From a virus: a stretch of 25,687 bases of DNA. Below are positions 1 to 15,662 of this stretch, in pieces. The position numbers were made by a program, and so were the translations under genes. The notes below the pieces were generated by a model. It was given only the letters and a program-made list of their open reading frames with translations. It was not told the origin of the DNA and did no database searches. The stretch's first letter is position 1; every line of letters begins with the position of its first letter. The stretch covers positions 1 through 25,687 of IMG/VR virus record IMGVR_UViG_3300028392_000269; one strand, given 5' to 3'.

Positions 1-141
1 CGCCACTGCACAGTTGAGGTCGATGTCTACGAAGTGGTTGGGTTCGATGGTCCAGTCGCCGTTGACGTACAGGTCGAAGCCTGCGTCGTCTGCGTGTGCT
101 CTGGTCGGTCGTGTGCCTTTGTAGCGTAGTACGTTCTTCAT
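1..141 (-). CDS. dut: dUTPase, N-terminal part (gene runs off the left edge)
   Basis: This is the first 47 codons of a gene whose 3' end lies outside the window. The product begins MKNVLRYKGTRPTR and contains DAGFDLY at residues 19-25, which matches motif 1 of trimeric dUTPases (AG-[FY]-D-L). It is followed by a W-T-I-E-P...D-I-D-L stretch, as in phage dUTPases. The family hydrolyses dUTP to dUMP and pyrophosphate, keeping uracil out of DNA and feeding dTMP synthesis. Its ATG overlaps the stop of the upstream gene by 4 bases (ATGA), so the two are probably translationally coupled. The remaining motifs are not visible, so the call rests on motif 1 and on the nucleotide-metabolism neighbours. 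Confidence 0.8.
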   Translation of the reverse strand, partial: MKNVLRYKGTRPTRAHADDAGFDLYVNGDWTIEPNHFVDIDLNCAVA

Positions 142-539
142 TCGGTGGTCGCTTTCACGGTCAGTTCGTTTCGGAGCACTTCGAGGTTGTCAAATATGAT
201 GACGTTTCGCAGTCTGGCTAACGCCCAACTGTTCTTGTAGTCGGGGGCGTACAGGTAGATGAACATACCAAGTTTGTTGGCGAGTTTGAGTTCTAGCACC
301 GTGCCGATGGTTGGCACGCCTTTCACTAGGAACGCCACCAGTATGTCGGTTTGTGCTAGTGCGTATTCGTTGATTTGTTGCAGTGCTGGTGTTGGTTTGG
401 TGTCGGCGTGCACGGTCCATGCGCTGGCTGGGTTGTAGTAGGTGTAACCTGTCTCTTCTAACAGGTCTTGCAGTTGAGCGCGTGTGTCTTGTACGTCTTT
501 GTTTGCGTAGTCGATTGGTCCTGCGAGGTACACTATCAT
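138..539 (-). CDS. Nucleoside 2-deoxyribosyltransferase-like protein
   Basis: This 133-residue protein begins MIVYLAGPID. The N-terminal YLAGP loop and the later GT-V-L-E-L segment (residues 79-84, Glu83 in the catalytic-Glu position) are typical of the nucleoside 2-deoxyribosyltransferase superfamily. Enzymes of this fold move 2-deoxyribose between bases or hydrolyse deoxynucleoside monophosphates. I start it at 539 because the fold begins there and the ATG overlaps the upstream stop (ATGA at 536-539). The open frame continues upstream to 830, but that part is Arg-rich shadow sequence. It lies between dUTPase and the MazG-like gene, so a role in the deoxynucleotide pool is likely. Whether it acts on diaminopurine or guanine deoxynucleotides cannot be told from sequence. 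Confidence 0.7.
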   Translation of the reverse strand: MIVYLAGPIDYANKDVQDTRAQLQDLLEETGYTYYNPASAWTVHADTKPTPALQQINEYALAQTDILVAFLVKGVPTIGTVLELKLANKLGMFIYLYAPDYKNSWALARLRNVIIFDNLEVLRNELTVKATTE

Positions 540-886
540 GGGAAGATTCCGCCTGTCGCGCGTACGCGTTGCGCCATCATCGCGTAGATGCCTGTGTCGT
601 ACCATGTGTCGTCGCTGGGTGCGTGTCCGTCTGCGTATCCGCCTACGATTCGTCCGACTTTGCCTAGCAGGTAGAAGGCGATGCCTAGTTCTGCTGGGTG
701 CACTTTGCCTTCGAGTTGTGGCATCATCTTCATCATGACTTCGCCTACGATTTGCAAGTCGGTACTGCCGTATTCGCGCACTTTGGGCAGCATGCCTGCG
801 AGTGATTTGTCTGCGTGTTCTAGCCACCACTCAGCGAATTCGTCTATTCTTAGGTCTTTATCGGTTTCTTGGTTTTTGCCTTCCAT
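536..886 (-). CDS. mazZ: MazG-like nucleotide pyrophosphohydrolase, candidate MazZ
   Basis: This is a 116-residue, all-helical protein. It contains R-E-Y-G-S-T-D-L (residues 37-44), then E-L-G-I-A-F-Y-L-L-G-K (66-76) and a D-D-T-W-Y-D...Y-A-M-M block (92-104). That acidic spacing is seen in phage MazG-like pyrophosphohydrolases, which cleave (d)NTPs to (d)NMPs with metal held by Glu/Asp. In aminoadenine phages the MazZ member converts dGTP to dGMP, the substrate of PurZ, and purZ lies two genes upstream in this operon. The start at 886 has a GGA ribosome-binding site about 10 bases upstream; the longer open frame to 1081 is an Arg-rich shadow. MazG-like assignment is fairly firm. The MazZ role is inferred from PurZ. 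Confidence 0.7.
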   Translation of the reverse strand: MEGKNQETDKDLRIDEFAEWWLEHADKSLAGMLPKVREYGSTDLQIVGEVMMKMMPQLEGKVHPAELGIAFYLLGKVGRIVGGYADGHAPSDDTWYDTGIYAMMAQRVRATGGIFP

Positions 887-891
887 GGCGT

Positions 892-1122
892 TTATTCCTG
901 TTCTGTCTCGTCGTCGTCTAGATAGACTACGATAACTGTTTGCGGTTCTGGTTCGTCTTGCGGTTCGTAGTTGTGTGAACCCCAACGTGTCATATGCCAC
1001 CCTGAGCAGAAGTGGTAGTCTCCTTCGTGGGTGGACACGACGAGCCAGTCTACGGAGTTGCGGTCGTCTAAGGTTATCCACTTATCGCAGTCTGGCTCGT
1101 CGCATTTTAGGGCTTCACTCAT
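892..1122 (-). CDS. Small Cys/His protein, unknown function
   Basis: This 76-residue protein carries C-D-E-P-D-C near the N-terminus (residues 7-12) and H-F-C-S-G-W-H around residues 37-43. The four Cys/His positions could bind one zinc ion. The C-terminus is strongly acidic (D-D-D-E-T-E-Q-E). Its ATG overlaps the purZ stop (ATGA at 1119-1122), so it is translated with purZ, and it lies directly before the MazG-like gene. I do not recognise the family beyond small zinc-binding phage proteins. Its position inside the purZ-mazZ pair makes an accessory role possible but unproven. Confidence 0.7.
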   Translation of the reverse strand: MSEALKCDEPDCDKWITLDDRNSVDWLVVSTHEGDYHFCSGWHMTRWGSHNYEPQDEPEPQTVIVVYLDDDETEQE

Positions 1123-2159
1123 TGATTCCAGTAGATGGTCGCCATCGTAGTTGGGCTTGTCCCGACTAGAGCGACTGTCGCTCCTGTTTCTGCTTGTAGG
1201 TTCTCGATGTAGTCGCGGTAGGGCTTCTCATCTGGAACTATTGTAGCATTTTTGAGTTCTGGGAAGACGTAGTCGAACATGGTTAGGGCGATTCGGGCTT
1301 TCGGTGCGCCACCGTTGGCTTGGACGGCTCGTTTGACGATTTCGGCGTCGAACGTTCCTACGCGTCTAACTTTGTTGGTTACGGTGGTCCGTTCTACTTC
1401 CAGCCCGAGGGTTGCCCAGTCGGTTTCGTTGGCTAGTGGTCCGCTGTTTCCTGCTACGCGGATTGGGTGTGTTCGTGCGACGACCCACACGTCGAGGTCG
1501 ACGATTCCGTGTTGCCACGGGCTGATTCCTGCCATGGCTAGGAAGTCGATGGCTCGGCAGTCACTGGAGGTACAGAAGGGGTATTCTCCTGCGTGTGTGC
1601 CTAGTCCGTAGCCTTGTGTACCTTCGATGAGCACGTGGGTGTCTTCTTGGGTGAGGGCGTCTTGGAGTATGGCTACGGTGTTGCAGTCGCCACCGTACAG
1701 TTCTGCGTTGCGCATGATTCGGTCGGCACGGGCTGCTCCGATTCCTTTGGCGGTTGAGCCTAGCCGTTCTTGCATAGCGTCTATGCGTTCGCGGTCTTGG
1801 TGTCGCTGGTCGATGATGGTAGCCTCGCGGTCGATGTAGAGTCGGTCGCTGGCTTGGTAGCCTGCTCGGTCTAGTCGGTCGAGTTCGTCGTCTAGCACGG
1901 CTAGTTCGATTTCAGACCCTGCTGCGATGATTAGGGTGCTTCGGGGGTCGGTTACGGCTGTGACGGGGACGGTGCGCAGTTTCCATGCGTAGTTGGTTTC
2001 GCCGTCTGGTCCGTTGCCGTAGACGGTGTGTCCTGCGTTTGGTCCTGCGACGCGTACGCCGTAGTTCCTCCAGCCGATTTGCTGGCTGAGGTAGCCTGTT
2101 ACAGCACCTTTGCCTTCCGACCCGTATTGTCCGCCTACGATGACGCTTACTTTGCTCAT
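1119..2159 (-). CDS. purZ: PurZ: N6-succino-2-amino-2'-deoxyadenylate synthase
   Basis: This is a 346-residue homologue of adenylosuccinate synthetase, much shorter than bacterial PurA (about 430). The P-loop reads G-G-Q-Y-G-S-E-G-K-G (residues 9-18). Ser14 replaces the catalytic Asp of PurA, as in the phage PurZ enzymes that use dGMP plus aspartate. N-A-G-H is kept (41-44), as are E-G-T-Q-G (179-183), Y-P-F-C-T-S-S (193-199) and the Arg pair at 265-266. The guanine-reading T-K-x-D is T-M-F-D (293-296), which fits loss of GTP preference. The product goes to adenylosuccinate lyase to give dZMP, the 2-aminoadenine nucleotide. The start at 2159 follows AAGGAAATAG; the in-frame ATG at 2192 lies inside the upstream gene and lacks this site. 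Confidence 0.9.
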   Translation of the reverse strand: MSKVSVIVGGQYGSEGKGAVTGYLSQQIGWRNYGVRVAGPNAGHTVYGNGPDGETNYAWKLRTVPVTAVTDPRSTLIIAAGSEIELAVLDDELDRLDRAGYQASDRLYIDREATIIDQRHQDRERIDAMQERLGSTAKGIGAARADRIMRNAELYGGDCNTVAILQDALTQEDTHVLIEGTQGYGLGTHAGEYPFCTSSDCRAIDFLAMAGISPWQHGIVDLDVWVVARTHPIRVAGNSGPLANETDWATLGLEVERTTVTNKVRRVGTFDAEIVKRAVQANGGAPKARIALTMFDYVFPELKNATIVPDEKPYRDYIENLQAETGATVALVGTSPTTMATIYWNQ

Positions 2160-4011: not shown

Positions 4012-4041
4012 AGTAAACCATATCCCTTGCCAGTTTGTCAA
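4012..4041 (-). promoter_or_regulatory. Promoter A (repeated promoter family)
   Basis: On the minus strand: -35 TTGACA (4036-4041), 18-base spacer containing TGGCAA and ATATGG, and -10 TTTACT (4012-4017) preceded by TG-N (extended -10). The -35 overlaps the stop codon of the RuvC-like gene. Close copies occur at 14353-14382 and 17435-17464, with weaker ones at 17829-17858 and 11882-11911. The elements TTGACA and TGGCAA form an imperfect inverted repeat (5 of 6 arm positions) that could be an operator. Confidence 0.75.
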
Positions 4042-4475
4042 GCAGGGGTCTCTAAGCCCGTGTCGTCGGGGTTCTTGAAGTGCCACCACCACCCGTGGGC
4101 TACGGCGTCCCTCATGTGCTGACCACCCTTCGGCATATCGAACCCTTGGGCGTCCATCCGCTCGAACGCGTGCCTCTTGATAGTCGCTGGCTGCATCGCT
4201 ACGGGGCTGCCGTTACGGTGTGCCAGATATTTCAGTGCGCCGATGAGTTGAGGCGTCTTCATCGCACTGAACCCTTGCTTCTGCGCGAGCCACGGGTACA
4301 ATTTAAAATCTTCAATCACCACCATGTCGAACTTAATGACTTCGATAATCTCCGCCATCTTCAACGGCTCAATCGTCTTAGCCTCTTCAATCTGACCGCC
4401 CAGCCAAACGCACATTCCTACGTGCTTGTCGCCTGGGTCGATTGAAACAACGTGAAGGTTTTTTATTTTGCCCAC
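4038..4475 (-). CDS. RuvC-like Holliday junction resolvase
   Basis: This 145-residue RNase H-fold nuclease has the acidic residues in RuvC order. Asp13 is in V-V-S-I-D-P-G (9-15), Glu55 in M-V-V-I-E-D-F (51-57), and Asp123 in H-M-R-D-A-V-A-H-G (120-128), with His127 taking the last metal-ligand place. It should cut branched DNA made during phage replication and recombination. The start is GTG at 4475, 13 bases inside the end of the polymerase gene, so the two are translationally coupled. Its base composition is C-rich on the plus strand, unlike the G/T-rich plus strand of the genes between 1 and 3300. Confidence 0.8.
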   Translation of the reverse strand: MGKIKNLHVVSIDPGDKHVGMCVWLGGQIEEAKTIEPLKMAEIIEVIKFDMVVIEDFKLYPWLAQKQGFSAMKTPQLIGALKYLAHRNGSPVAMQPATIKRHAFERMDAQGFDMPKGGQHMRDAVAHGWWWHFKNPDDTGLETPA

Positions 4476-6544: not shown

Positions 6545-7360
6545 TCATTTGCCTTGTTCCTCTTCAAAATCGACAAAGCAACCGCAACCACCAATATCAA
6601 ACTCGTCAAACAGGCTTGGCTGTTGCCCCGTCTGCTGGCGCAGTTCCGAAAGCGTAATCATCACTGGCTCGTTGTTTACTCGTTTACGCAAAATAGAAAC
6701 TTCTTTACCTAAGAAGTCACGCACTCCTTGTTCTTGCGCTTCCCATTCTGCGAATCGTTCGGGCATAAGTTCCAGCAGTTTCTTGAACTGTCCTTGACCT
6801 GCACGCACGCACCCCCCACCGCAGTTATTGTGAGCAAACCCAAGGTCATATAAGCGTGGGGTTTTTAGACCTTCGCTATTCGCCCATTCAATCATTTGTT
6901 TCTTGTCTAGGTAAGGTGGTTCGGTTAGCGGTGCTTCAGCCTTGTACGGTAGGTAGTTGCGTACGATGGCTGGTATGCGGTGGGTTTCTGTCCAGTCGAT
7001 ACCAACGTATACGACGGTGTCTTCAGGGTCGCAGTTCTCTTCTAGCCATTTTCGGGCTGGTTTTTGTTTCAATTCATGTGAGCAATTTGCCTGTCGGCTG
7101 TTGCCTAAGAACTTTCGGTCTTTGAATACCTGCCAGATGTCTCTGCCTGTATTGATATAGACGTAATATCCGCCGATGTTGGCTACCGCGTCTTCAATAA
7201 ACCGATAAGTGTCTGGGTCTTCACCTACGTGCGGTGACGGATTGTTACCTTTCACGTCGGTAAACACCAAGTACAAGTCCTCTGTGCCGTGCTGTTCTGC
7301 TACGCGCTTTGCAGCAGCCCACGAACCGATACCGCCACTAAACATGACTACGTGTTTCAT
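6545..7360 (-). CDS. PP-loop ATPase of the PAPS reductase/DndC-like family
   Basis: This 271-residue protein begins MKHVVMFSGGIGSW. S-G-G-I-G-S (8-13) is the PP-loop that binds ATP for adenylation, as in PAPS reductases, DndC and related enzymes. N-C-S-H-E-L-K and C-G-G-G-C-V-R-A-G-Q further on are typical of phage members. The C-terminal G-G-C-G-C-F-V-D-F could bind metal or an Fe-S cluster. The family activates substrates for sulphur transfer, base or tRNA modification, or sulphate assimilation, so the substrate here is open. The start at 7360 is chosen for the PP-loop and the ATGA overlap with the 58-codon gene upstream. No dnd partners are in the window. Confidence 0.75.
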   Translation of the reverse strand: MKHVVMFSGGIGSWAAAKRVAEQHGTEDLYLVFTDVKGNNPSPHVGEDPDTYRFIEDAVANIGGYYVYINTGRDIWQVFKDRKFLGNSRQANCSHELKQKPARKWLEENCDPEDTVVYVGIDWTETHRIPAIVRNYLPYKAEAPLTEPPYLDKKQMIEWANSEGLKTPRLYDLGFAHNNCGGGCVRAGQGQFKKLLELMPERFAEWEAQEQGVRDFLGKEVSILRKRVNNEPVMITLSELRQQTGQQPSLFDEFDIGGCGCFVDFEEEQGK

Positions 7361-7533
7361 TTGCCTAACCTTTCTATGTATTTTGCGATGCGCTGGACTG
7401 TGTCGTACTGCGCCTGTAACGAAGGGCTGTTCTTGGCTTCGTAACAATCGTTGTGCTTACCCTCACAAGCGCAAGTGAATGCGAACGGAGTGAAGTGGTC
7501 ACGGATATGTTGGGCTAGTTCTTGGCTGGTCAT
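7357..7533 (-). CDS. Small Cys-containing protein (58 aa), unknown
   Basis: This short gene begins MTSQELAQHIRDHF and ends KYIERLGK. It has C-A-C and a further Cys (C-A-C-E-G-K-H-N-D-C) in the middle, a possible metal site, followed by a predicted helix. The evidence that it is real is its fit: it fills the gap between its neighbours exactly, with ATGA overlaps at both ends (7530-7533 and 7357-7360), as elsewhere in this gene run. Function unknown. Confidence 0.7.
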   Translation of the reverse strand: MTSQELAQHIRDHFTPFAFTCACEGKHNDCYEAKNSPSLQAQYDTVQRIAKYIERLGK

Positions 7534-8081: not shown

Positions 8082-10481
8082 CTACTCCCAACCGTTACTT
8101 GCGATTTCGACCACGCGGTCTGACCAAAGTACGTCCAAAGCCACGTAACGGGCTTTCGGAGCGTCTCTGCCAACTCCAGTGCGCTTGAACACCGACCCTG
8201 TTATTCCAAGGGCACGGAGTTGCGCTCTGATGGCTTCGGGACTATCTAGACGGTCGGTCTTACCACGCTTCCGAAGTTCCTTCTGCCAAGCACTAGCCAA
8301 GCGGTCTGGGTGCAGGTATACGATACCATCTTCTACAAACGCTGGTGGCTCACCGCCCATACGGTCCACCATCTTACCGAACTCGTCCACCACAGCCCAC
8401 GGTAGCAGTTTCGTGACCAATGTGTTCTCAGAGCCGAAGTCGCGTTGGCTGGCACACCAAGCATCTACACGTTCAACGATGGTGTGGTCGTCCACGATAT
8501 CCGCTAGGATTCGGGCAGCGTTACGCAGGATTGCCAACACTTCATGGTGTCGACCGTGTCCCGTCCTCAAGTCGGTTACTTCGCCGATGAGGTGTTCACG
8601 CTGTAGGGCTAACATCACCATCGTACCTGCGTATTTAGATAGGTCACCTTCGAGCCGTTCCAGCCGCTTCACGTCGTCCCACTGTGGGTAGTCACCCTTT
8701 GTGCTTTTACGTCCTACTGGACTTGGCACTTCGGTCAGTAAAACACGCCTATCGCGTTGTGCCTTCTCGCCACCACCTAGTTCGCCCAGCGATTCGCCTG
8801 TGATAAGGATAGGGGCTACTAACTTAATATCAACTGTGCCTGTATTATCGGCTGCTTTCTTACCTTCAGACCCTTCACCCGTTGCTTGGCGCAATAGGTC
8901 TGCGATGTTATCTAGTCGGTTCGAGTCGTCGATATGAACAATGCCATTACGGTGTGAGCCGATTGCGTCGCGTGTGGCTGCTTTAGTCCATTCGCCGAAT
9001 CTGACTGTACCAGCCAAGTTGAGCATCAATCGGAAGAAGCCTCGGGTCTTGCCAGATTCGCTGGCTGCTTCGATTGCGAAGTATGGGAAGTGTCCGATAG
9101 CACCCATGTATTGACCTTTGAGCAGGGTCGCTACCCACCACGCGCCAAACACTGCGGTTACGGTCTCATCGTGGAAGGTCAGCACTTCGCGCAGAACTTC
9201 TACCGCACGGTCGGGGTTGCCCATTCCGTATTTGACGGGTGCTAGGTTCTGCAAGGCTGGGTTCGGCATCACACCTTCGTGTGATTTCATACCCGTGGCT
9301 GTGATGACGCCTTCGTGCGTAACAAATCCGATTCCGTCAATCCACCCTAAGTGCGGTATCTCTTTATATAGTGTGGGCTGTTGGCTCTCAAGGTAGCGCA
9401 AGATTCGCGCCCCTGCGTTGACGCGTGAACGGTTGTCGTTCTTTGGCGGTACTACGCTGACGCCGTGCTTGGCTAACCAACTGAGTGTGTCGTTCATACG
9501 TCCTAACATCGCGCCTTTAATGAGGTCGTCTCTGCTCTCGCCGTCGGACCTGTGCACGGTCACAGCATAGGTGCGTCCTAGTGGTCCGTCGATTACACCG
9601 CGTGCTTCGATATCAGCGTTACACCAGCGGTCCACCCCGACTATCTTCTGATTGGCGATTTCGGTGACGATTTCGGTGTAGAGCCAAAGCCCGTCACCTA
9701 TCAACCAGCCTGTGTCGGCTGTAGGGGTGTCTGGTTTGGCGTGTTCTTTGTCCCAAACGCCGACTTTCTTCTCAATCTCTTCATCAGTCAGCGGTGAGGG
9801 CAGACTGCGGTTGATGGTGTGCAGTAGGCTCAGGTACGCGTCTGGGTAGGGTACGATTTTGGCTAGGTGTCCAGCAACTCTGGTTACCCAGACGTCACGT
9901 CCACCTTCGGTGGGGGGTTCGTTGAGCAGGGCGGACAGTAGGCTTTTGGGGGCGTCGGTTGCGGTATCGTTCTCGGATGCAACCTGCCCCATATTGGATA
10001 TCGGGGCGACCTGCAGGTGTTCAAGCCCTCGTATGAAGGCGTAGACGTGTCCCGTTTCGTGCACGGACGGTGGGGCTATTACGCCACCCCCGTCGCCTCG
10101 AATGTCAAAGGAGATACCGTTCTCGCGCTGGGAGGCGGTACTGGACCAAGACCTCAGTGCTTCACCGTCTGGTATGCGTAGCCAGTAGTGGTAGCCTTTG
10201 CTGGTCTTAACACACGTGGTGGTGTCTAGCAGGTCTGAGCCTAGGCGTTCGCGCCAGTAGACGTCGCCACCCCTTGAGTCACAGTCAATCACTACGATAC
10301 CGCTGGGTGCGCCTGTTGCTATCCAGATGTTGTTATCGCGGTCGAACCAACTAGCGATTTTTGCTCGGTTCGGTCGGTTCTCGGCTACGTCACGCCACGG
10401 TACTGTAGGTGATTTGCCTCGCGCTGGTAGCGGCAGGATTCCTGCGTCGAAGAATGCGAGGGCTTGGTCTTTATTTGGCAT
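8082..10481 (-). CDS. Bifunctional primase-polymerase / helicase-like replication protein
   Basis: This 799-residue protein starts with an archaeo-eukaryotic primase (prim-pol) domain. It has V-V-I-D-C-D (63-68) with the two metal Asp residues, T-S-K-G-Y-H-Y-W (93-100), and F-D-I-R-G-D-G-G-G-V-I-A-P-P-S (125-139), the standard bifunctional prim-pol ending. The C-terminal half carries a P-loop, A-A-S-E-S-G-K-T-R (472-480), and a Walker B-like G-I-V-H-I-D-D (513-519), as in phage DUF927/D5-type helicases. Together these should prime and unwind DNA at the fork for the family A polymerase. The leader hairpin at 10484-10513 covers the ribosome-binding site. Aminoadenine phage S-2L also uses a prim-pol, but there as its polymerase. 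Confidence 0.85.
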   Translation of the reverse strand: MPNKDQALAFFDAGILPLPARGKSPTVPWRDVAENRPNRAKIASWFDRDNNIWIATGAPSGIVVIDCDSRGGDVYWRERLGSDLLDTTTCVKTSKGYHYWLRIPDGEALRSWSSTASQRENGISFDIRGDGGGVIAPPSVHETGHVYAFIRGLEHLQVAPISNMGQVASENDTATDAPKSLLSALLNEPPTEGGRDVWVTRVAGHLAKIVPYPDAYLSLLHTINRSLPSPLTDEEIEKKVGVWDKEHAKPDTPTADTGWLIGDGLWLYTEIVTEIANQKIVGVDRWCNADIEARGVIDGPLGRTYAVTVHRSDGESRDDLIKGAMLGRMNDTLSWLAKHGVSVVPPKNDNRSRVNAGARILRYLESQQPTLYKEIPHLGWIDGIGFVTHEGVITATGMKSHEGVMPNPALQNLAPVKYGMGNPDRAVEVLREVLTFHDETVTAVFGAWWVATLLKGQYMGAIGHFPYFAIEAASESGKTRGFFRLMLNLAGTVRFGEWTKAATRDAIGSHRNGIVHIDDSNRLDNIADLLRQATGEGSEGKKAADNTGTVDIKLVAPILITGESLGELGGGEKAQRDRRVLLTEVPSPVGRKSTKGDYPQWDDVKRLERLEGDLSKYAGTMVMLALQREHLIGEVTDLRTGHGRHHEVLAILRNAARILADIVDDHTIVERVDAWCASQRDFGSENTLVTKLLPWAVVDEFGKMVDRMGGEPPAFVEDGIVYLHPDRLASAWQKELRKRGKTDRLDSPEAIRAQLRALGITGSVFKRTGVGRDAPKARYVALDVLWSDRVVEIASNGWE

Positions 10482-10985: not shown

Positions 10986-11813
10986 CTATTTCTCTTCCTG
11001 CGCTGGTGCGCTGTTGTTACTCGCTTCGCGTGCTGCACGCTGGCGAGGGTCTGTTTCTGCCGTGAGTTCGCCGTTAACGTAGGCGACCACTCGGTCTAGC
11101 GTCGGGTCGACTAAGGTCTGTGGCAGGATGCCGAAGCGGTCCTTGCCCGTGAACTTGCCGACTGGTTTACATGTTCCGAGGTGGAACTCTTGTCCGCCGA
11201 TTTCGCGCACTTCGGTGTGAATAATGACGTCCACGTAGCCCATTAGGTCTGTCTGGAACGCTGGTGTTAGTGCTGGTGAGTAGGTCACGCTTCCGTCGTC
11301 GTCCACTTCACGCTTTGGCAGTGCGCCGAACGCTACGTGGCAGGGCAGGTCGCGGAAGCGTCGTGTTAACCGTCGCATCTGCTCTGTGACTACGCCCCAG
11401 TCGGCTCGGTCAATCTGGAACGGGTCGCGGTCCATACCGCGTCCTGTTGCTTTGGCGACTGCTTTGCCGATGATGTTCTCTAGCAGAATCTTTTGGATTT
11501 CGGTTACTGAATCCAGCACAACTGTGGAGATTGAGGTCGGGTCGTCGGTCAGTCGGGCTTTCACTTCGAAGTACACCTGTTCTAGGGCTTCGAATGTGAT
11601 TTGCTGGTGTGGCTCGATTTGGTCGGTTGGGATTCCTAGCCGTGCCAGTGGTCCGCGTTTCAATCCGCTTTCGGCGTCGATGTAGAGGACTGGTCCGAGT
11701 TTCGATGCGCTGGACATCGCGGTGGTTTTGCCTGAGCCTGCGTCGCCGTAGTACAGGATTTTGACCACTTCTTGTTGGTCTGCGAGCGTGGCTCGCGGTG
11801 TTGCTTTTGCCAT
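10986..11813 (-). CDS. Sak4-like RecA-fold ATPase (single-strand annealing/recombination)
   Basis: This 275-residue P-loop protein has Walker A G-D-A-G-S-G-K-T-T (23-31) and Walker B T-V-V-L-D-S-V (97-103). The length and compact RecA-like core fit the phage Sak4 family, which works with SSB-like proteins in recombination. Here it stands next to a DUF669-like protein and a Cas4-like nuclease, a common phage recombination set. The start at 11813 is chosen because AAGG lies just upstream and the fold begins after it. The frame upstream to 11891 is leader sequence containing promoter E and a hairpin. The C-terminal tail (A-P-A-Q-E-E-K) is disordered. Confidence 0.8.
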   Translation of the reverse strand: MAKATPRATLADQQEVVKILYYGDAGSGKTTAMSSASKLGPVLYIDAESGLKRGPLARLGIPTDQIEPHQQITFEALEQVYFEVKARLTDDPTSISTVVLDSVTEIQKILLENIIGKAVAKATGRGMDRDPFQIDRADWGVVTEQMRRLTRRFRDLPCHVAFGALPKREVDDDGSVTYSPALTPAFQTDLMGYVDVIIHTEVREIGGQEFHLGTCKPVGKFTGKDRFGILPQTLVDPTLDRVVAYVNGELTAETDPRQRAAREASNNSAPAQEEK

Positions 11814-11844
11814 TGTCTTACCTTCCGTTGTTTGTATGTTCTCT

Positions 11845-11864
11845 GCACGGGTTGACCGCCGTGC
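11845..11864 (-). promoter_or_regulatory. 5' leader hairpin of the Sak4-like gene
   Basis: GCACGG (11845-11850) and CCGTGC (11859-11864) form a 6-base stem with an 8-base loop. It lies in the leader between promoter E and the start at 11813. It is the fourth leader hairpin downstream of a member of the promoter family. Confidence 0.5.
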
Positions 11865-11881
11865 TCGGTGATTGCTTTCAT

Positions 11882-11911
11882 ACCCTACCACACGGTGTGA
11901 CAGGGTGTCTA
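11882..11911 (-). promoter_or_regulatory. Promoter E (divergent member of the promoter family)
   Basis: On the minus strand: -35 TAGACA (11906-11911), 18-base spacer ending GTGTGG, and -10 TAGGGT (11882-11887) with TG-N before it. It aligns with promoters A to D in spacing and extended -10 but has lost most of TGGCAA. It should drive the recombination and replication genes from 11813 onward. Confidence 0.55.
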
Positions 11912-11924
11912 ATTGGCGGTTACT

Positions 11925-12800
11925 TTAGTGTCTGGTGAAATTCTGGACGAACCCAACTTCACCTAGGTAACCGCGTGTGCCACCGCGTCCATCTTTAGCC
12001 CCGAACAGGCATGCTTCGGTGTACGGGCAACGCCACCTACAGGTGTCGGTGTTGAAATGGCGCGATAGGTCGATGCCTGTCTTTTTAGACTTGCGTAGAC
12101 CAGCGTACGCTTGATATGCGTCTTGGTAGGCGTCTGCTGCTAACTGCGCCAGTTCTGCGTCGGATTTCGCGATTAGGGTGCGACTGAATCGGTCGCCTAA
12201 CGCCATCTCACCCTTGTTACGCTGTGTGCGTAGGGTGTTGTAAATCATGCCGTGCACAGGATACCCAAGTTGGCGCATAGCCCAAGCATAAAGACCGAAC
12301 TGGACGTCAAGGTCGAGTTCTTTATCGGACGGCAGGCGAGCCGCTGTCTTGTGGTCCACCAGCCAGAGCCGACCGTTCCACTCGACCAACAGGTCAATTT
12401 TGCCTTTGATTTTGATGTTGCTGTTCTTGCCGTCGGGCTTGGGCAACGGTAGGACGAAGTCGTGTTCAACCGCTATGACCTTCCACTGGTCGTCATACGC
12501 GTAACGGTCTACGTAGCCTTCCACAATCCAGTGGACGAGTTCCCCTATTTCGTCAAGGTACGCGCCGTTCTGGTCAAAAACAGTACCTTCCGAGGCTCGG
12601 ACGATATCTTCTAGAACTGGGCGCGGACCGTCGGCTGTCTGCAGGGCTTCGTACCAATTCTCCAAGATGGTGTGTACGCGCTTACCGCGGTCTAACGCCA
12701 CGGCATCGACAGGGGAGACCCACCGTTCGCCGTAAGCCAGTTGGTGCTTGAACGGACACTGTCGGTAGGTGTCAAGTTCGCTGAATGAGATGATAGGCAT
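11925..12800 (-). CDS. Cas4-like / RecB-family exonuclease with Fe-S cysteines
   Basis: This 291-residue PD-(D/E)XK nuclease has R-G-K-R-V-H (38-43), G-K-I-D-L-L (133-138, Asp136), V-D-H-K-T (148-152, Asp149 and Lys151) and Q-F-G-L-Y-A-W (167-173), the RecB-nuclease order. One N-terminal Cys (Cys15, R-Q-C-P-F-K) and three C-terminal Cys (254, 258, 264) are positioned as in Cas4 and AddB for a 4Fe-4S cluster. It should resect DNA ends for Sak4-type recombination. No cas1, cas2 or CRISPR repeat is near, so it is not adaptation machinery. Its stop precedes promoter E by 13 bases, and its start abuts the upstream gene stop. Confidence 0.85.
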   Translation of the reverse strand: MPIISFSELDTYRQCPFKHQLAYGERWVSPVDAVALDRGKRVHTILENWYEALQTADGPRPVLEDIVRASEGTVFDQNGAYLDEIGELVHWIVEGYVDRYAYDDQWKVIAVEHDFVLPLPKPDGKNSNIKIKGKIDLLVEWNGRLWLVDHKTAARLPSDKELDLDVQFGLYAWAMRQLGYPVHGMIYNTLRTQRNKGEMALGDRFSRTLIAKSDAELAQLAADAYQDAYQAYAGLRKSKKTGIDLSRHFNTDTCRWRCPYTEACLFGAKDGRGGTRGYLGEVGFVQNFTRH

Positions 12801-14309: not shown

Positions 14310-14327
14310 TTGGTTCTCTCCTTGTTA

Positions 14328-14344
14328 GGGGGCGTTTTGCCCTT
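14328..14344 (-). promoter_or_regulatory. 5' leader hairpin downstream of promoter B
   Basis: GGGC (14330-14333) and GCCC (14339-14342) close a 5-base loop, with two more G-U pairs possible. Given a -10 at 14353-14358 the stem falls at the 5' end of the transcript, as at promoters A and C. Confidence 0.55.
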
Positions 14345-14352
14345 ATAGGACT

Positions 14353-14382
14353 ATCCAACCATATGGGTTGCCAGTCTGTCAA
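14353..14382 (-). promoter_or_regulatory. Promoter B (repeated promoter family)
   Basis: On the minus strand: -35 TTGACA (14377-14382), 18-base spacer with TGGCAA and ATATGG, and -10 TTGGAT (14353-14358) with TG-N. The -35 overlaps the purB stop codon, the same placement as promoter A over the RuvC-like stop. The -10 is the weakest of the three close copies. Confidence 0.7.
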
Positions 14383-15662
14383 ATCAAATCCCTTAGGGCG
14401 GTCCTCAGCGTGTCGCCAAGGTCCGAAAGCCCGTCCACGGACGCCGACATTGAGAATACGTCGTCGAAGTCCACGAAGGTATCTGGGAACGCCGTAGGAA
14501 GCGTCCTGCGCACTTCGCGCTCCAAATCCCCCAAAAGGGCTTTCCGTGCCGTCTCGTGGACGTACGCGTGCGCGTCCTTCCGAGACACCCCAGCCTTCAT
14601 CAAAGCAGCCAGAACTCTGTGGCTGTAGACGTCCGTATTCGACCGAACATTCGTATACATGCTGTTAGTCCGAACGTTCAAACCGTTCAACAGGGACGTG
14701 GTGTCGTCCAGTATCGTGTCCGCCACATGGCACAAGTCCACTAACGCCACGCGTTCCACACTCGAATGTGCGATATCACGTTCATGCCACTGCACAATAG
14801 ACGGTTCAATCGCACTGGCGTAACCGCGAGCCAGCCGAGCCAAACCACAGATACGTTCAGCCGTAATCGGATTTCGCTTGTGTGGCATAGAACTCGAACC
14901 GCGCTGTGATTCAGCAAAAGTTTCGTCGACCTCGCGTACGCCACTATGTGCGGATAAACGAATTTCGGTAGCAATAGCCTCGCACACGCTGGTGACATTG
15001 GTGATGCAGTGCGCCCAATGCACAAGACTGTCGCGCATCAAAATCTGACTTGCAACAGGTACTGTCAACAGACCTAGCGATTTAGCCGCTTGAATCTCGA
15101 CATCACGACTGATATCAGCATATGTGCCTGTCGGTCCGCTCAACTTCGCCACCGAAATGTCTTCGAGTGCACCAGTCAACCGCACCAAATTGCGGTCTAA
15201 TGCATACATGAAATCCGCCATTTTGTGACCCCAAGTGTCCACTGTCCCTCGCTGTCCGTGGGTTCTGCCTACACGGTACGTGTTCCAGTGCTTGACTGTA
15301 TGCTGGTGGCAGACGTGTGACAGTTCCAGTGTCTTACGTAGCAGGACGATACTAGCCCGTTGCAGTGCCATTGACTGCGCGGTCTCCACGACGTCGCTGC
15401 TGGTCAGTCCAAGATGCGCGAACTCTGCACCCCAGACGTCTAGAAACGCCACCACATCGTGACGGGTCTCAAGTTCACGCTCTGCCACCTGCTCAGGTGT
15501 GGGGGTTGGGCAGTTCGCTGCTTGTTTCCAAGCACTGTCGGGCAGGACGCCTTCGCTGACTTGTGCACTCAGTACCGCCATCTCTACCGCGACCCACCTT
15601 TCAAGTCGAGCCTCGTCAGACCAGATAGCGGTCATGGCTTCCGATTCGTATCTGCTAATCAT
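14379..15662 (-). CDS. purB: Adenylosuccinate lyase (PurB), phage-encoded
   Basis: This 427-residue lyase is full length for the bacterial family. It has the N-terminal M-I-S-R-Y...M-T-A-I-W-S (1-15), T-R-H-D-V-V-A-F (66-73), L-T-S-S-D-V-V (86-92), G-R-T-H-G-Q (132-137, His135), the mobile catalytic loop with G-S-S-S-M-P-H-K-R-N-P (255-265) and E-R-D-I-A-H-S-S-V-E-R-V (294-305). It removes fumarate from adenylosuccinate, and in Z phages from N6-succino-2-amino-dAMP, giving dZMP. The usual H-A-E-P-T-T after the catalytic THG is R-G-T-V-D-T here, a change beside the active site. It starts within an ATGA overlap with the gene upstream, and promoter B begins at its stop. Its A/T skew differs from its left neighbour. 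Confidence 0.93.
   Translation of the reverse strand: MISRYESEAMTAIWSDEARLERWVAVEMAVLSAQVSEGVLPDSAWKQAANCPTPTPEQVAERELETRHDVVAFLDVWGAEFAHLGLTSSDVVETAQSMALQRASIVLLRKTLELSHVCHQHTVKHWNTYRVGRTHGQRGTVDTWGHKMADFMYALDRNLVRLTGALEDISVAKLSGPTGTYADISRDVEIQAAKSLGLLTVPVASQILMRDSLVHWAHCITNVTSVCEAIATEIRLSAHSGVREVDETFAESQRGSSSMPHKRNPITAERICGLARLARGYASAIEPSIVQWHERDIAHSSVERVALVDLCHVADTILDDTTSLLNGLNVRTNSMYTNVRSNTDVYSHRVLAALMKAGVSRKDAHAYVHETARKALLGDLEREVRRTLPTAFPDTFVDFDDVFSMSASVDGLSDLGDTLRTALRDLI

Follow-up and report, generated by a model that had tools for sequence, protein, structure and literature searches.

A phage adenylosuccinate lyase gene co-inherited with purZ and its probable role in 2-aminoadenine synthesis

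Introduction

Does a phage that encodes PurZ also supply the lyase for the second committed reaction of 2-aminoadenine (Z) synthesis, the conversion of dSMP to dZMP? Published accounts of Z phages assign this step to the host: bacterial PurB was named for it in a 2025 paper (PMC12783734), and in Poubanne et al. (2026) host enzymes carry out dSMP to dZMP to dZTP, the words "PurB" and "lyase" being absent from the main text (PMC12884076). A sequence-only reading of the viral DNA analyzed here had likewise given the step to the host PurB in the best-studied Z phages, and proposed that this phage carries its own adenylosuccinate lyase (ADSL) for the step. The window, i.e., the whole stretch analyzed, is a linear IMG/VR record of 25,687 bp, and genes absent from it may sit beyond its ends.

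Results

Identification of purB and the predicted structure of its product

The lyase gene was found at exactly the coordinates given by the sequence-only reading, on the minus strand, and the measured distance to purZ, 12.2 kb, agreed with the roughly 12 kb stated there; the claims of full length and intact catalytic motifs were likewise upheld. The product scored 344.7 bits against the equivalog HMM TIGR00928 (purB), above the curated cut-off of 326.2, and matched Lyase_1 at 1.8e-33. The match to ADSL_C (PF10397) was confined to positions 3–35 and, at 26.2 bits, was below the cut-off of 32.7. The nearest solved sequences were the PurBs of T. maritima, S. aureus, and B. subtilis (E about 1e-70). 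An AlphaFold2 model built on 22 aligned sequences (pLDDT 87.5, pTM 0.87) confidently predicted the ADSL fold, with TM values of 0.92 against B. anthracis PurB (2pfm) and 0.86 against S. aureus PurB (2x75).

The omega value of purB against its two nearest relatives, whose PurBs are 65% and 62% identical to that of the window, was 0.17 (0.05–0.32 across the pairs tested), and purB is thus a gene under purifying selection rather than a chance open reading frame. Identity to the PurBs of the Streptomyces phages Galactica, Hiyaa, Keanu, and Spocter was 39–40%. The window PurB resembles bacterial PurB (TIGR00928; S. aureus 2X75, B. anthracis 2PFM, T. maritima 1C3C) in fold, catalytic residues, and full length, but differs in being phage-encoded and co-inherited with purZ, in sharing at most about 45% identity with the bacterial PurBs found, and in occupying a separate branch of the tree.

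Active site of the window PurB

The residues named in the AMP complex of S. aureus PurB are Arg4, Tyr5, His68, Asp69, Ser94, Thr95, His141, Gln212, Ser262, Lys268, Asn270, Glu275, Asn276, Ser306, and Arg310 (PMC2917274). Their equivalents in the window PurB are R4, Y5, H68, D69, S88, S89, H135, Q206, S256, K262, N264, E269, R270, S300, and R304, and the only changes in this ligand and catalytic set, Thr95 to Ser and Asn276 to Arg, were permissive and are frequent in bacterial PurBs too. The three superfamily motifs were all present, namely, TSSD, GRTHG with the acid His, and GSSxMPHKxNP with the base Ser, the Lys, and the Asn. Across 45 aligned Z-phage PurBs, residues H68, S88, S89, H135, Q206, S256, K262, N264, E269, S300, and R304 were invariant save for a single R304K. 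In the S. aureus structure, the contact to the ribose O2' is made by a backbone carbonyl (PMC2917274), and a 2'-deoxy substrate would therefore require no side-chain change.

A clear Z-specific active-site change was sought in the Z-phage PurBs, and none was found. A183 to P, a state shared by 44 of the 45 Z-phage PurBs and located in a loop that positions Gln212 (the N6 ligand) through a backbone carbonyl, was rejected as a Z-specific signature, the same state occurring in an actinobacterial PurB (L150). The P177, R130, R147, and G237 states are all common to this ordinary actinobacterial enzyme, and we therefore claim no specificity switch. The idea that L150 is a hidden phage fragment was discarded as well: it is the top-scoring PurB of its genome, further genomes of the same class carry copies 73–77% identical to it, and the PurZ-model match in its genome was under the cut-off.

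purZ and the minus-strand replication region

As listed in Table 1, purB lies in one minus-strand replication region together with purZ and the genes for the DmtZ-like protein, the DpoZ-like polymerase, the primase, the Sak4-like recombinase, and the exonuclease. The purZ reading frame is open to 2192, and its likely start is the ATG at 2159 (MSKVSVIVGGQ), behind AAGGAAAT. The deduced PurZ, in which Ser replaces the catalytic Asp (GGQYGSEGKG), falls within the PurZ0 clade.

Table 1. Annotated features of the window and the matches on which they are based
Feature	Position	Strand	Evidence
DmtZ-like nucleoside deoxyribosyltransferase, 133 aa from an internal ATG, stand-alone gene	138..539	-	PF05014 2.4e-7
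Conserved 116-aa protein between purZ and dmtZ	536..886	-	Homologs in 105 loci; the likely "mazZ" of the sequence-only reading
purZ (PurZ0 group)	1119..2159	-	NF038379 332.7 bits (cut-off 300); groups with Ghobes/Wayne PurZ
RuvC-like resolvase adjoining the polymerase	4038..4475	-	phrog_1770/159, weak; 71% in L076
DpoZ-like family A DNA polymerase with 3'-5' exonuclease, 614 aa	4463..6307	-	NF038381 phage_DpoZ_2 341 bits, just below the cut-off of 350
Primase/polymerase-helicase	8082..10481	-	PF09250 3.3e-23; phrog_5177
Sak4-like recombinase	10986..11891	-	phrog_124 3.3e-44; AAA_24
PD-(D/E)XK exonuclease	11925..12800	-	phrog_1218 1.6e-60; PF12705
purB, adenylosuccinate lyase, 427 aa, ATG start	14379..15662	-	TIGR00928, Lyase_1, active site, and fold model

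The PurZ0-type PurZ, the DpoZ-like polymerase, and the DmtZ-like gene are shared with the PurZ0 pathway of Gordonia phage Ghobes and Arthrobacter phage Wayne, and the window phage appears to replace A by Z in its DNA. The DmtZ-like protein was 34% identical to the DmtZ-DutZ gene product of Wayne over its N-terminal domain, and 50% to its counterpart in one of the two nearest relatives (L077). In both relatives (L076 and L077), a dUTPase-like open reading frame, dutZ, follows dmtZ at a distance of up to about 0.3 kb; the window ends 137 bp beyond dmtZ, and dutZ was seen only in these relatives, past the window edge. The PurZ/MazZ/DatZ pathway of S-2L, the phiVC8-like phages, and SH-Ab 15497 also derives Z from dGMP by PurZ, as in the window, but has DatZ and MazZ-type pool enzymes in place of DutZ/DmtZ.

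The sequence-only reading had listed purZ, mazZ, and purB as occurring together in this DNA. This did not hold for mazZ: neither Pfam, PHROGs, nor hhalign gave a MazG, DUF550, or DUF5664 match or any named family for the 116-aa protein beside purZ, its assignment as MazZ was dropped, and no MazZ was identified in the window, itself a fragment of the phage genome. Homologs of the protein were present in about 105 of the loci collected, mostly PurZ contigs, and hhalign (8e-25) linked it to the gene that lies behind purZ in the Micrococcus phage Olihed; a Z-pathway or dGTP-pool enzyme not described before may be encoded here. The broader claim that the whole route from dGTP to dZMP is phage-encoded stood at the sequence level for PurZ and the lyase, but not for its first step, the likely dGTPase being the dutZ product of the relatives.

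In the same region, a phosphoadenosine-phosphosulfate-reductase-like gene (6545–7447, minus strand; phrog_424) had no homolog in the related loci collected, including the two closest phages, and is possibly a recent insertion.

Co-occurrence of purB and purZ

Three different Z-phage PurB queries against 50,697 phage records returned the same annotated actinophages. The purB gene was annotated in eight isolates, namely, the four Streptomyces phages mentioned above and Gordonia phages Ghobes, Frizzle, Sapo, and Archimedes, and purZ was present in all eight, its presence in Frizzle being deduced from the count of Gordonia records. Among IMG/VR sequences, 26 of the 58 PurB loci had PurZ in the same record, and PurB was held by 19 of the 27 PurZ contigs of at least 30 kb, in one case (L145) by a weak 58-bit match; these 27 belong to the best 80 of 252 PurZ matches, a sample that leans toward the PurZ0 group and toward PurZs close to that of the window. 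The earlier statement that few described systems combine purZ, mazZ, and purB was thus overturned, as regards purZ and purB, by the eight isolates and by most of the long PurZ0-type contigs sampled.

The two genes were arranged in tandem about 0.3 kb apart, divergently about 0.1 kb apart, or 2–8 kb apart. The PurBs of the Streptomyces phages, encoded near purZ, are of the same type as that of the window; they are annotated by similarity alone, and the literature searched contained no functional study of them. Ghobes gp36 is annotated as an adenylosuccinate lyase, in contrast to the host assignment for this phage (PMC12884076). Searches with the HMM found no PurB in Wayne, Goodman, VP2, SH-Ab 15497, and ZP6, indicating that a phage PurB is not required in every Z phage.

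Several carriers had unusual PurBs. Those of Ghobes, Sapo, and Archimedes (L004, L007, and L008) were short, 365–377 aa, with most of the C-terminal region missing and the catalytic motifs kept, and an IMG/VR group (L051–L070) was largely short as well (363–364 aa). In L145 (record G052, 14320–15117), the PurZ contig with the 58-bit match, the 397-aa PurB-like open reading frame was very diverged and may represent a decaying or changed lyase.

The "phage" purB records from outside the Z phages are doubtful as true phage sequences, the wastewater and fecal records being unverified clones and others looking bacterial. In the record of Microcystis phage MaAM05 (MW495066.1; L009), metG, proS, ftsH, and glgX lie beside purB, and the PurB groups with that of a Vampirovibrio MAG; this record may be bacterial sequence.

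Phylogeny of PurB

An unrooted IQ-TREE analysis of 88 rows under a mixture model placed the Z-phage PurBs on one side of a branch supported at 97/96 and the PurBs of bacteria and of other viruses on the other side; one locus (L064), whose PurB lies at a contig end, was for that reason counted with the Z phages. When closer actinobacterial PurBs were added, the branch was retained at 93/97, and its neighbour was an actinobacterial housekeeping lineage. Rooting by lyase relatives was rejected, the outgroup rows being very long and not monophyletic. One Z-phage PurB (L059) was omitted from the later trees as a long-branch outlier. In this locus, a PurZ-like gene just under the cut-off (283 bits) lies beside the extremely long-branch PurB, and it may belong to a different Z-type lineage.

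Patristic distances of PurB and PurZ were closely correlated (r=0.87, 0/2000 permutations), and 26 of 41 splits were in common; vertical descent within one set of genomes would be expected to give such congruence for any gene. With VP2, SH-Ab 15497, and ZP6 as the outgroup of the PurZ tree, the earliest branches included PurB carriers, the PurB-free phages Wayne, Goodman, Sucha, and Olihed formed a group nested among carriers, and parsimony required six changes of PurB presence. Such nesting of the PurB-free Arthrobacter and Microbacterium phages suggests loss of PurB, which is the simpler reading compared with late gains, although the outgroup branch is long. Most likely, phage purB goes back to a single acquisition of an actinobacterial purB, which was then passed on together with purZ within the PurZ0 group.

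Discussion

We consider it probable that the window purB encodes an active phage lyase that converts dSMP to dZMP in the phage's own Z pathway, with a single actinobacterial origin, co-inheritance with purZ, and loss in some lineages; on the best reading of the data, the PurZ0-type pathway has long included PurB among its enzymes. In such a pathway, a DutZ-type enzyme like those of the relatives would convert dGTP to dGMP, PurZ would join dGMP and aspartate to form dSMP, and a PurB tetramer would cleave dSMP to dZMP and fumarate by the usual ADSL β-elimination, H135 serving as the acid, S256 as the base, and K262 and N264 holding the succinyl group. Kinases would then furnish dZTP for incorporation by the DpoZ-like polymerase. 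The activity on dSMP would be expected from the chemistry of the family. The Arthrobacter and Microbacterium lineages would have lost PurB and come to rely on that of the host.

A bolder version holds that a dedicated phage lyase was the ancestral core step of the PurZ0-type pathway, that the PurB lineage became tuned to the 2-amino, 2'-deoxy substrate, and that host dependence of the Wayne kind is a derived loss; we regard this as possible, though with less than even chances.

A dual role, or one in dosage, overlaps with the preferred explanation and is possible, though clearly less likely than it. The host PurB would be able to act on dSMP, but dSMP would compete with SAMP and SAICAR and slow host purine synthesis, and the phage copy would add capacity for both, as an accessory gene lost where host capacity suffices. 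The patchy absence of PurB in nested lineages, the unaltered general active site, and the published assignment of the step to host PurB in other Z phages are all consistent with this. Retention over deep divergence and strong purifying selection suggest more than an occasional benefit, which is nevertheless still compatible with dosage.

General purine supply, in which the phage lyase would boost the output of AMP and AICAR (SAMP to AMP, SAICAR to AICAR) and the proximity of purZ would be incidental, seems improbable. The ordinary PurB-type active site of the window enzyme would fit such a role, and purB is present, too, in some viral contigs that lack PurZ, a number of them with a PurA-like gene. 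Common occurrence of purB in phages lacking purZ had been put forward as evidence that would speak against a function in Z synthesis; such viral contigs do exist, but the PurB tree places their purBs on different branches. Moreover, the annotations of the complete Galactica and Ghobes genomes include no PurA or other purine-synthesis gene, and the Z-phage PurBs group apart from non-Z viral PurBs, track the PurZ tree, and adjoin purZ in several lineages. Even less credible is a co-occurrence of purZ and purB explained simply by the age of both genes within a single group of related phages, with no functional link, for, although congruent trees are expected under vertical descent and our sampling favoured PurZs close to that of the window, the carriers vary widely in size, gene order, and purZ/purB arrangement (45-kb Ghobes, 81-kb Galactica, and the window phage), and, within the collection, no phage isolates other than Z phages have a purB that is both annotated and non-suspect.

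The literature searched, whose reach did not extend to the Z-pathway papers published in Science in 2021, contained no further account of a phage PurB in Z synthesis, and priority is uncertain. The stronger result is that the window PurB, judged by its sequence relationships, is part of a phage lineage that is old and linked to purZ. If phage PurB does perform the conversion of dSMP to dZMP, a matched PurZ/PurB pair would be available for the synthetic-biology production of Z-DNA in cells. Two Z-DNA papers assign this second committed step to the host, including the 2026 study of the lyase-annotated Ghobes; much of the PurZ0 group would in that case encode both committed Z reactions, and a phage-encoded lyase step would bear on the host range of these phages and on the origin of the Z pathway.
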